Shown here in pieces: positions 4,937 through 8,858 of a stretch of 46,743 nt of DNA. Positions within the stretch are counted from its first letter, which is position 1, and each line of letters opens with the position of its first letter. A program made the position numbers and the translations under genes. The notes beneath the pieces were generated by a model. The model was given only the letters and a program-made list of their open reading frames with translations. It did not search any database and was not told the origin of the DNA. Where the stretch lies: assembly GCA_903953565.1 (NCBI GenBank), contig CAJBKE010000005.1:1-46743 (forward strand). Direction: 5' to 3'. This DNA comes from an uncultured Verrucomicrobiota bacterium (GTDB lineage Bacteria; Verrucomicrobiota; Verrucomicrobiia; Chthoniobacterales; JACTMZ01).

Positions 4937-5584
4937 TCACTTCGTCTCGGACAAATACCGCACGAACCACGCGGAAGCCAACTCGGCAACCTGTGCCAAA
5001 GTTCCCGCTTCCTCGAAAAGGTGGGTCGCGCCGGGGATAATGAGCAGCTCCGTCGGACACACCATTCGCGCCCTTGCTCCTTCGTTGAGTTCAATAACCA
5101 CATCGTCGTCGCCCCCGACGATGAGAAGCGTCGGGCAAGTGACCTCAGGTAACGCGTCGCCAGCCAAATCCGGCCTTCCTCCGCGCGAGACAACGGCTGC
5201 GACATCACTCGATTCCGCTGCCGCGACCAGAGCGGCGGCCGCTCCCGTGCTCGATCCGAACAGACCGATCCTCGCATCGGCAAGTTCAGCCTGATGTTTG
5301 GCCCACTGCACCACCTGCGCGACGCGGCGCGCCAGCAGGCCAATGTCGAAACGCAGTTCGCGCGTGACATCATCGACCCGCTCTTCGTGCTGCGTCAGCA
5401 AGTCCATGAGCAATGTGCCGAGTCCCGCTGCGTTGATTTGCTCGGCGACGAAACGATTGCGCGGACTATGCCTGCTGCTGCCGCTTCCATGGGCAAAGAT
5501 CACCAAGCCCCGGGCCTTCGCCGGCAACGTCAGGTCACCATGCAACGAAGCCTCGGGCAACGGAATGACGACCGACTTTGTCAT
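4937..5584 (-). CDS. Dienelactone hydrolase family alpha/beta hydrolase
   Basis: A 215-residue cytoplasmic alpha/beta hydrolase. It has the oxyanion-hole motif FAHGSGSSRHSPRN at 30-43, nucleophile elbow GSSTG with Ser112, an acidic cluster GGDDDVV at 157-163 and His188 in PGATHLF. This subgroup is regularly found beside, or fused to, the phosphoribosyltransferase encoded just upstream (fused in mycobacteria). The two genes here overlap by four bases (ATGA). The true substrate of the family is not known. Confidence 0.85.
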   Translation of the reverse strand: MTKSVVIPLPEASLHGDLTLPAKARGLVIFAHGSGSSRHSPRNRFVAEQINAAGLGTLLMDLLTQHEERVDDVTRELRFDIGLLARRVAQVVQWAKHQAELADARIGLFGSSTGAAAALVAAAESSDVAAVVSRGGRPDLAGDALPEVTCPTLLIVGGDDDVVIELNEGARARMVCPTELLIIPGATHLFEEAGTLAQVAELASAWFVRYLSETK

Positions 5585-6288
5585 AACTGCCCCTCTCTAC
5601 TCCCAGCCAAAATCCTCTGCACATCCTCGTCCGTGGTCGGCCGGAAGTCTTCATACCACTCGCCCACGGCGCCAAAACACGCAGGCGTCTGCAGCACGAC
5701 AACTTCGTCCGCGTCTTCCACGAGCGAGGCCACCGAATCGGGAGCACCGACCGGGGAAGCCGCGATCACCTTGGCGGCGCCCGAGGCTTTGACCGCTTGC
5801 AGTCCCGCTCGCATCGTCGCGCCAGTGGCCACGCCGTCGTCGACGACGATCACCTTCTTATCCTGCAAAACCAGCGGTTCGTGACTTCCCCGGTAGGCCG
5901 ACACTCGTCTTTCCAACTCCTTCTCCTCGACGGCCGCAATGCGGTCAATATCCCGAGCGGCAATCATCAGACCGCGGATAAGACCCATGTTGAGCACACG
6001 CACCCCACCTTCACCGATCGCGCCGATGGCCAACTCCGGTTGACCCGGGGCCCCCAGTTTCCGAACCATAAGCACATCGAGTGGCGCGCGCAGGACACGC
6101 GCAACCTCCCAAGCCACTGGAACTCCGCCCCGAGGAAGCCCCAGCACAACCACATCGCCGCGCCCGTAATACTTCGCCAGTTCCGCCGCCAATAACCTTC
6201 CGGCCTCCCGGCGGTCCGTGAATCTTTGCCCAGCTAATGCGCCCACACCTTCAAACTCCGCGCGCCGAGGCACCACCGCCAGCAGCAA
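5581..6288 (-). CDS. Phosphoribosyltransferase family protein
   Basis: A 235-residue type I phosphoribosyltransferase. RFTDRREAGRLLA at 22-34 opens the domain; LPRGGVPVAWEVA, RKLGAPGQPELAIGAIGEGG and the PRPP loop VVDDGVATGAT at 148-158 are all intact. Members bind PRPP, but their acceptor is unknown. The called start is TTG at 6286-6288 with GAGGG close upstream; GTG codons at residues 5 and 6 are alternatives. It is translationally coupled to the downstream hydrolase. Confidence 0.88.
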   Translation of the reverse strand: MLLAVVPRRAEFEGVGALAGQRFTDRREAGRLLAAELAKYYGRGDVVVLGLPRGGVPVAWEVARVLRAPLDVLMVRKLGAPGQPELAIGAIGEGGVRVLNMGLIRGLMIAARDIDRIAAVEEKELERRVSAYRGSHEPLVLQDKKVIVVDDGVATGATMRAGLQAVKASGAAKVIAASPVGAPDSVASLVEDADEVVVLQTPACFGAVGEWYEDFRPTTDEDVQRILAGSREGQL

Positions 6289-6363: not shown

Positions 6364-6861
6364 CTACCTCTTCTGCACCCAGCGCCACGTGTTGTTGTCT
6401 TGTTGCACTTCGATCCACTCACCGCTGAAGGAACGATTACGCCACAACTCGCCCTGCTGCGCCTGCACATCGGCGAGCGAAATCTTTCGCTCCGCGGCAA
6501 GTTGACGCATGACGAGCAGGCGGTCGGTGTTTTCCTCCGCCGCGACTTTTTCGACGTAAGCACCATAAGCTCCCTCCGGACGGCTCAGCACGACCAGCAA
6601 TCCGTCGCGGCCCTCGCCGATCAAACGCGAATTTTTGAATGTCTGCACATCGCCCATGCGCGAGCGTCGGCGCGCGTCGGCCGCCGGAAGATCTGCGGAG
6701 GGCGAAGGCTTGGCCGCGGATGAACCGCCGCCCCGCTCGTAAATGTCCACGCGCATATTGATATCCACCACGATGGGGTCCGGGGTGGAAAGATTCACCG
6801 TCGGCGCCTGGCAGCCCGCGCCAAGCATCGTGGCTAGCATGAGGACGCTCGCGACCCTCAT
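6364..6861 (-). CDS. YnbE-YdbL fusion lipoprotein (DUF1318 C-terminus)
   Basis: ATG at 6861 overlaps the YdbH stop (ATGA) and gives a 165-residue lipoprotein with lipobox LGAGC, Cys17. Residues about 18-43 (PTVNLSTPDPIVVDINMRVD) match YnbE, the small outer-membrane lipoprotein with a P-I-x-I-N-x-x-V-x-I strand. Residues about 69-165 match YdbL/DUF1318 (MGDVQTFKNSRLIGEGRDG, then AEENTDRLLVMRQLAAERKISLADV). In E. coli these are separate genes in ydbH-ynbE-ydbL. YnbE pairs with YdbH to bridge inner and outer membranes for phospholipid transport, and YdbL modulates that pairing. A low-complexity A/P/S linker (46-63) joins the two halves here. Confidence 0.8.
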   Translation of the reverse strand: MRVASVLMLATMLGAGCQAPTVNLSTPDPIVVDINMRVDIYERGGGSSAAKPSPSADLPAADARRRSRMGDVQTFKNSRLIGEGRDGLLVVLSRPEGAYGAYVEKVAAEENTDRLLVMRQLAAERKISLADVQAQQGELWRNRSFSGEWIEVQQDNNTWRWVQKR

Positions 6862-8858
6862 CTCCTGCCTCCCTGCTGCCAACGCGCGGTTCTTTGTTCA
6901 TCCTCGCCATGGAAGACCATTTCCATGTTTCGCGCGCCGGCGGGTCCTTGCATGCGAACGTCGATAATGCCTTGTTTTCCCACGAACCAAAAATCCGATC
7001 TGGCCTCCGTGTAGTCGAAGTCGCGCAGAGTCTCAAGCGTAACGCGGCTGCTTTCGCTTTTTAGGGCGGCCCATTCCGCCGGAATGGCGGCGAGCATGTC
7101 GTTGAGTTTGTTGATGACCAAACGCCCCTTGCCGCGCGCCGTCACGTTGCCCTTCACCCGCTCAACCACCGTCGCCCGACCATTGGCCTCGACTTTGAAG
7201 TCGGCCAGACCGGTCATCACCACGTGCTGCGGGGCGCCGTCTTCGCTGAGCGGACCGAGATCCACCCCTTCACCGCCGACCCACCCGGTCCACGGCGAGT
7301 CCGGTTGCAGGAAAAAACTGAACCCGCCGTTGACGTAGCCACGGTAAGCGCGTCCGCCGAAAAGACCGTTGATCCCCTTGCTGTCGAAGGTGACCGAAAC
7401 CCAGAGGCCGTTCGCATGAAAATTGCGCCAGCGCGCGCGGTCGAAGCGGACGACATTGACGAGGTTGTTGCGGCGCAAGTCCGCTGGATAATTGAAACGG
7501 AGATCACCTCGCACATCGCCCAACGAGAGATTGTAGGCGGGAAACTCGTAATCCTCCTCGGGCACCTTAAGCACAAGCTCGACGTTCAGTCCGGTCAGTG
7601 ACGACAAGGAAAGATTGCGCGCCGTGGTGTAGAAAGCCAGCGGCAGGCCGAATTGCTGCCGTCCGCCCACCGCGATCACCACCCGCCCGAAGTTCAACTT
7701 AAACTCGCTCACATTCCATCCCTCACTCTCCTTGACCGGCTCCGGAAGCTTGGCGGGATCGTCCGCGCTCTGCATGTATTCGAAGAGCGGTTCACCAACA
7801 TAAACCGTCGGCCCGATGAGCTTAACCTCCTCCAAATCGCGCGTGGCCAGACCAGCCAGCGTGAAGATGACAAATGCCGACCGCACCGTGACGGCGCGCC
7901 GCAATGGGTCGGATGGCGAGAGCAATTCGATATCGCTGAATTCAACCTGATGTTTGATTTCGCCCAACTCGTCCGCCACCGACCCGAGAGGAATGTTCCG
8001 CAAAGCCGTGTTCACCTGCAGGCTCAAGGCGGGCAGTCCGCCCGGAAGGCCGTCGGGCTGCACCTGCAGCCTGACCAAGTCGAGCGATTCAACCACCAAG
8101 GCCGAGCCAGACCCCTCCACCGGCGGCGTGTTGCTGTGGGCCATCAGACGCTCCAAACCGACCCCTGCAATCATCCATCCCTCTTCCACCCGCAGACCAG
8201 CCACACGTCCCTGCTGCAGGCCTGCGAGGTTAAATTTCAGCTCGGCACGCCCCGCGCCGAGCACCGGTAACTGCGCCTCTCCATCGCGAACCGCGCTGTA
8301 AACACGGCTCAGTTCCAAGACATGATTCTGCTCCGGTGCCGACGGACCAACGCGCTCCATCGTGCCGTCCACATTGACCGAAATATCCATCCCCGAATCG
8401 CCGAAACCCTCCAGCCAAACGTGTCCGCGCCGAATCTCCACCTTGCCGAATTCCCACGGCAGGGACGTCCCTGCGCTCGATCTGCCCTTGGCAAAATGGG
8501 CGATCGCTTCGCGGTCCAAATTGACCAGCGGCCCGGTCATGAGGAGAGATCCGAATCGTCCGCGACGCCAATCGGCTCCGGGACCCGCCGCGATTTCTTT
8601 GGCCGCAAAGACGGGCGTCTTTCTCCCGCGCAAGTGCAATTCGATGTCGCGCAGCAGCAACTCGCCGTTGCGGAAGCTCACTTGTCCGACTTTCAGACGC
8701 AACGCGGGATCATACGTCCGCACCGACCAGCGCAAGGCAGCGGCCGGACCTTTCCATGCCACCCAACCCGCCCCCAGCATCCCAACCGCCAGCACGGCCA
8801 GAACCCAACGCAACCACATGCGCCGGCGCCGGCGCGCTTTGGGTTCCTCCTTTTCCAC
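6858..8858 (-). CDS. ydbH: YdbH-like intermembrane phospholipid-transport protein (AsmA-like superfamily)
   Basis: A 666-residue protein with a basic cytoplasmic N-terminus (KARRRRRMW), one membrane helix at about 15-34 and a long periplasmic beta-rich region. The short-strand pattern (LKVGQVSFRNGELLLRDIEL) is typical of AsmA/TamB-like bridge proteins. The call as YdbH rests chiefly on the coupled downstream YnbE-YdbL gene. E. coli YdbH is longer (about 880 residues), so this is a compact version. Its role would be to form a hydrophobic groove that carries phospholipid across the periplasm, docking to the YnbE part in the outer membrane. It is divergent from ileS. Confidence 0.75.
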   Translation of the reverse strand: MEKEEPKARRRRRMWLRWVLAVLAVGMLGAGWVAWKGPAAALRWSVRTYDPALRLKVGQVSFRNGELLLRDIELHLRGRKTPVFAAKEIAAGPGADWRRGRFGSLLMTGPLVNLDREAIAHFAKGRSSAGTSLPWEFGKVEIRRGHVWLEGFGDSGMDISVNVDGTMERVGPSAPEQNHVLELSRVYSAVRDGEAQLPVLGAGRAELKFNLAGLQQGRVAGLRVEEGWMIAGVGLERLMAHSNTPPVEGSGSALVVESLDLVRLQVQPDGLPGGLPALSLQVNTALRNIPLGSVADELGEIKHQVEFSDIELLSPSDPLRRAVTVRSAFVIFTLAGLATRDLEEVKLIGPTVYVGEPLFEYMQSADDPAKLPEPVKESEGWNVSEFKLNFGRVVIAVGGRQQFGLPLAFYTTARNLSLSSLTGLNVELVLKVPEEDYEFPAYNLSLGDVRGDLRFNYPADLRRNNLVNVVRFDRARWRNFHANGLWVSVTFDSKGINGLFGGRAYRGYVNGGFSFFLQPDSPWTGWVGGEGVDLGPLSEDGAPQHVVMTGLADFKVEANGRATVVERVKGNVTARGKGRLVINKLNDMLAAIPAEWAALKSESSRVTLETLRDFDYTEARSDFWFVGKQGIIDVRMQGPAGARNMEMVFHGEDEQRTARWQQGGRR

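Follow-up and report, generated by a model that had tools for sequence, protein, structure and literature searches.

A YnbE–YdbL fusion lipoprotein encoded beside a YdbH-like protein in Verrucomicrobiota

The analyzed window, a stretch of 46,743 nucleotides from an uncultured bacterium of the order Chthoniobacterales, encodes a lipoprotein in which a YnbE part and a YdbL/DUF1318 domain are united in one polypeptide, directly downstream of a gene for a YdbH-like protein. This fusion is a new variant of the known YdbH–YnbE–YdbL system; no published description of a YnbE–YdbL fusion was found in the literature searched, the coverage of which was incomplete. We think it likely that the protein is the part of a YdbH-type intermembrane phospholipid bridge that sits at the outer membrane, and that it contains the chaperone as well. 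The same fusion is conserved throughout the order and seems to have arisen several times within the phylum. The features of the locus are as follows.

6364–6861, minus strand: YnbE–YdbL fusion lipoprotein, 165 aa (open reading frame; Pfam DUF1318; same fusion in all six families of the order with DUF1318 above the cut-off)
6814–6861, minus strand: lipoprotein signal peptide, residues 1–16, lipobox GAG/C (sequence; fast-evolving)
6733–6813, minus strand: YnbE part, residues 17–43, Cys17 followed by the strand PTVNLSTPDPIVVDINMRVDIYER (bridge HMM, 4.6e-7; near-invariant in close relatives)
6658–6732, minus strand: A/P/S-rich linker, residues 44–68 (in frame; variable between families, of similar span)
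6367–6657, minus strand: YdbL/DUF1318 domain, residues 69–165 (Pfam; AF2 model against 28oj, Z 10.2)
6858–6861, minus strand: ATGA stop/start overlap of the ydbH-like gene and the fusion gene (sequence; alike in E. coli ydbH/ynbE)
6858–8858, minus strand: YdbH-like AsmA-type protein, 666 aa, GTG start, N-terminal membrane helix (stepwise profile matches; iterated HMM)
8754–8816, minus strand: predicted N-terminal membrane anchor of the YdbH-like protein (hydrophobic stretch, within AF2 helix 8–36)

Two halves in one reading frame

The fusion gene starts with ATG, and its product opens with MRVASVLMLATMLGAGC. The lipobox GAGC, read from the sequence, places the lipid site at Cys17, and residues 17–43 are CQAPTVNLSTPDPIVVDINMRVDIYER. 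The coordinates, strand and anatomy of this lipoprotein, as described in an earlier note on this DNA, were confirmed by the open reading frame and its sequence. Several assemblies with titles naming Chthoniobacter flavus or Chthoniobacterales contain fused orthologues that are 68–81% identical. pN is well below pS (the latter near saturation) in each of three segments, YnbE, linker and DUF1318, which points to purifying selection on all three; the YnbE strand is near-invariant among close relatives, and the linker is constrained among them, though variable across families. The fusion is genuine, with one conserved reading frame. Many genomes were assembled from metagenomes, where a sequencing or assembly error could have joined two genes, but the same fusion recurs in dozens of genomes, in several assemblies and in six families of the order, with one frame under selection. 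Such an artefact is refuted by the independent assemblies, and its probability is negligible.

The second half is YdbL/DUF1318 by both sequence and fold, as the earlier note had proposed. The Pfam model PF07027 (DUF1318) matches residues 68–159 with an E-value of 1.8e-10 and 41.6 bits, above the cut-off of 27. An AF2 monomer model of the fusion, built from a 6-row alignment, reaches reasonable confidence in the DUF1318 part only (pLDDT 73–80 over residues 81–130). In the PDB it is by far closest to the E. coli YdbL crystal structure, 28oj (Foldseek E 1.8e-4), with which it aligns in VIA at Z 10.2 and 1.4 Å over 72 residues, the next best structure reaching Z 3.4. The PDB name of 28oj carries the term "chaperone-like", which agrees with the role reported for this protein: E. 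coli YdbL is said, in work by Kumar et al. from 2024 in PNAS, to prevent an amyloid-like runaway multimerization of YnbE. A stand-alone YdbL is a protein by itself, soluble in the periplasm and exported by a signal sequence of its own; here, the domain sits behind a lipoprotein signal and the YnbE part, so that the window protein is best classified as a fused variant and not as a stand-alone YdbL.

For the first half, the YnbE identity claimed in the same note holds through intermediate sequences, but not through the Pfam family. PF13617 (Lipoprotein_19) has no match in the fusion open reading frame and only one unrelated weak match in the whole genome, and an HMM of stand-alone YnbE proteins reaches the window with an E-value of only 4.6. 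Mature E. coli YnbE, used as a query against 7,243 open reading frame segments from the Verrucomicrobiota loci examined, gave 35 matches at E ≤ 5, of which 35/35 are ynbE or fusion reading frames; the best (6e-4) is a fusion from family f25 (L089). A bridge HMM, constructed from E. coli YnbE and three fusions of families f25, f31 and f19, matches the window protein at 4.6e-7. Among its 136 matches to E 10, a single one (E 7.5) is neither a ynbE nor a fusion reading frame, and those left unlabelled by the script are the window itself, fusions of the same genus or a ynbE. On these profile comparisons, the YnbE part is classed as a divergent YnbE homologue that is linked through intermediates and lies outside PF13617. 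As expected of YnbE, a lipobox cysteine begins the mature chain and the gene lies directly downstream of ydbH. The C-terminal helix-like segment that follows the YnbE strand in stand-alone and other fused forms is absent in the window's clade. Global hhalign comparisons of the fusion N-termini with stand-alone or E. coli YnbE were uninformative, the region being too short, and an hhalign score between two YnbE profiles was discarded because E. coli YnbE is part of both, which makes them not independent.

A genome search found one DUF1318 gene in the window's genome, and profile searches found neither a second DUF1318 gene nor a separate YnbE there. Similarly, two YnbE profiles run against 16 fused genomes gave exactly one match below E 1e-3 each, at the fusion. 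These results bear on a reading in which the YnbE-like segment is a mere lipid anchor for YdbL, and the bridge function is lost or performed by another protein. The missing helix-like segment would fit such an anchor, as would the failure of PF13617 and of the stand-alone YnbE HMM to reach the segment significantly. We nevertheless hold this reading to be improbable, given the near-invariant strand motif under purifying selection, the homology to YnbE through intermediates, the lack of any other YnbE found in the genome and the retention of YdbH next door.

The YdbH-like neighbour and related systems

The TGA stop codon of the ydbH-like gene lies inside the ATGA at the start of the fusion gene, so that the two genes share 4 nt. 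The earlier claim of a neighbouring YdbH coupled to the fusion holds, with the YdbH identity itself resting on operon position and stepwise homology. No Pfam model matches the 666-aa protein (P0002). A YdbH profile of the order matches other Verrucomicrobiota YdbH proteins with an E-value of 3e-7, and these match E. coli YdbH at 2.2e-6, ahead of AsmA (1.5e-4), YicH (5e-4), and TamB and YhdP, which are also worse. The direct match of the order's profile to E. coli YdbH is weak (E 0.067) and no better than that to TamB or YicH. By position and by these successive matches, the neighbour is designated YdbH-like. Its AF2 model contains an N-terminal membrane helix and a long beta-strand repeat, but a mean pLDDT of 45 makes the model unfit for comparing folds, and Foldseek returned no significant match in the PDB.

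Across the loci examined, a YdbH-like gene lies directly upstream in 42/50 fused and 53/69 separate cases, where some of the misses are short contigs or wrong reading frame picks. Family f65 (L125, L152) retains a ynbE–ydbL pair, and the upstream gene there is a GTPase-like reading frame, not ydbH. The window's genome also encodes TamB and AsmA-family proteins, and the YdbH-type system is one of several AsmA-like systems in it. Downstream of the fusion gene, the window carries genes for a phosphoribosyltransferase (PF00156) and a dienelactone-hydrolase-like protein (PF01738), which overlap by 4 nt (4937–6288, minus strand). These two domains are joined in one protein in some actinobacteria.

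The locus resembles the E. coli YdbH–YnbE–YdbL system in gene order, in the 4-nt ydbH/ynbE overlap, in the lipoprotein YnbE strand and in the YdbL fold. It differs in that YnbE and YdbL form one polypeptide, in the length of YdbH (666 versus 879 aa) and in the terminal helix-like segments, which are absent from the window's clade. In E. coli, translational coupling of ydbH and ynbE has been measured experimentally (PMC6728339), YnbE interacts with YdbH (PMC12977461), and YnbE reportedly joins the YdbH C-terminus by strand augmentation (PMC12045153). Stand-alone YnbE and YdbL proteins from other Verrucomicrobiota (for example families f17, f54 and part of f29) share the operon, the domains and the phylum with the window; unlike it, they are encoded by two genes, with a YdbL that has its own signal sequence and a YnbE that ends in a conserved (R/K)xLDxFFxDLD-like segment. 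TamL of Bacteroidota, a lipidated TamA-like protein, likewise serves an AsmA-like bridge as its lipidated partner in the outer membrane (PMC12045153), but it is an unrelated Omp85-type barrel and the partner of TamB.

Distribution and origins of the fusion

The survey comprised 387 Verrucomicrobiota genomes, 134 of which contain DUF1318, and another 57 relatives that were searched separately. Loci were read in 120 DUF1318-bearing genomes: 48 carry the fusion, 69 carry separate ynbE and ydbL genes and 3 are unclear, some states being assigned by inspection when the motif script failed. Fused and separate states occur together in 0/120 genomes. All DUF1318 loci above the cut-off in the window's order, from six families, are fused, and families f29, f34, f45, f46 and f84 are mixed, with both fused and separate members. 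The survey of Verrucomicrobiota proposed in the earlier note thus found the fusion to be conserved in the order and to recur across the phylum, a result that strengthens the YnbE–YdbL link that the note had drawn outside Proteobacteria; the fusion is not general, however, with separate genes (69) outnumbering fused ones (48).

Three further observations concern individual families. Several genomes of family f16 (L101, L102, L104, L168) have two paralogous fused copies, one with a reduced YnbE motif, and the fusion system seems to have been duplicated there. Locus L107 (G332, family f17) is possibly an orphan YdbL: its DUF1318 gene, which encodes a signal sequence of its own, lies downstream of a large reading frame that is unrelated, and no ynbE is nearby. 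In L088 (G424, family f15), a weak DUF1318-like segment precedes a phosphate-binding-protein-like sequence, with no ydbH or ynbE beside it.

The distance from the lipid-site cysteine to DUF1318 is 43–62 residues in most families. If the A/P/S linker were cleaved, releasing YnbE and YdbL as two proteins, the fusion would be only a translational convenience, and a linker that is of low complexity and variable between families could be read in this way. No cleavage motif common to the families was seen by eye, and we hold this idea, too, to be improbable.

The number of fusion events was addressed with two trees. A DUF1318-only tree (95 columns) contains 5 changes between fused and separate states and does not reject a single fused clade (p 0.83). 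An operon tree built by a quick method from the YdbH C-terminus and DUF1318 (97 rows, 441 columns), and dominated by YdbH, contains four state changes, each forced by branches with SH-aLRT ≥ 95. AU tests on this tree, for groups named after the tree had been seen, rejected one fused clade (p 3.4e-6) and the union in one clade of the fusions that lie outside the window's clade (p 6e-4); in such a tree, a downstream gene that had been transferred could look like repeated fusion. With the tree rooted on E. coli, which has separate genes, about four fusions are the simplest reading, and the same fusion seems to have arisen several times within Verrucomicrobiota.

The window's fusion clade consists of its order and families f16, f18, f19, f25 and f31. 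Its YnbE parts lack the (R/K)xLDxFFxDLD-like segment that elsewhere comes after the strand, and its YdbH proteins stop soon after the last strand, typically at SRNxExVxHG, without an LPLNxLLxxNxKL-like segment. Both terminal helix-like segments are missing in the window (6858–8858) and in L069–L087, and both are kept in other fused or separate lineages. The joint loss is probably a single evolutionary event, and the correlation is therefore merely suggestive. As the YnbE of this clade has no C-terminal helix-like segment, its docking may differ. One tentative idea, which we consider possible but somewhat doubtful, is that at least three or four fusions occurred in one phylum because the aggregation-prone YnbE strand must carry a stoichiometric cap, and that in the window's clade a cap in cis allowed the loss of the YnbE and YdbH terminal segments and a remodelling of the bridge interface.

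Possible mechanism and significance

In the proposed bridge, the fusion protein would be lipidated at Cys17 and transferred to the outer membrane, where its YnbE strand would be added onto YdbH's C-terminal strand, lengthening the hydrophobic groove. The YdbL domain, carried on a linker of ~25 residues, could then cover the exposed edge of its own YnbE strand or of one next to it and keep YnbE from unlimited self-stacking. The fusion would fix the chaperone ratio at 1:1, make separate export of YdbL unneeded and place YdbL at the right membrane. Its recurrence suggests that YnbE needs YdbL stoichiometrically.

Action of YdbL in cis on YnbE is plausible. In the AF2 monomer, the YnbE part is disordered (pLDDT ~30) and makes no contact with YdbL, but this low-confidence model from a 6-row alignment would neither support nor exclude a cis contact. 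Alternatively, the fused YdbL may work chiefly in trans or serve as a scaffold, capping the edge of another YnbE or touching YdbH, with the fusion ensuring equal amounts and outer-membrane delivery. The long flexible linker and the absence of a cis contact from the model are consistent with this alternative, and nothing decisive argues against it, the linkers of separate fusion lineages being of similar span and compatible with either cis or trans action; we regard it as rather unlikely. We favour the outer-membrane end of a YdbH-type bridge with a built-in chaperone.

Of the components of the YdbH lipid bridge, YdbL is understood least. Its repeated fusion in nature gives good evidence of an action on YnbE itself; the recurrent joining suggests that the two partners must work side by side. 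The fusions provide single-chain constructs for testing the capping idea, the stoichiometry and the geometry, and they extend the known range of the YdbH bridge to a phylum, the Verrucomicrobiota, in which these proteins go undetected by the Pfam models for YnbE and YdbH.
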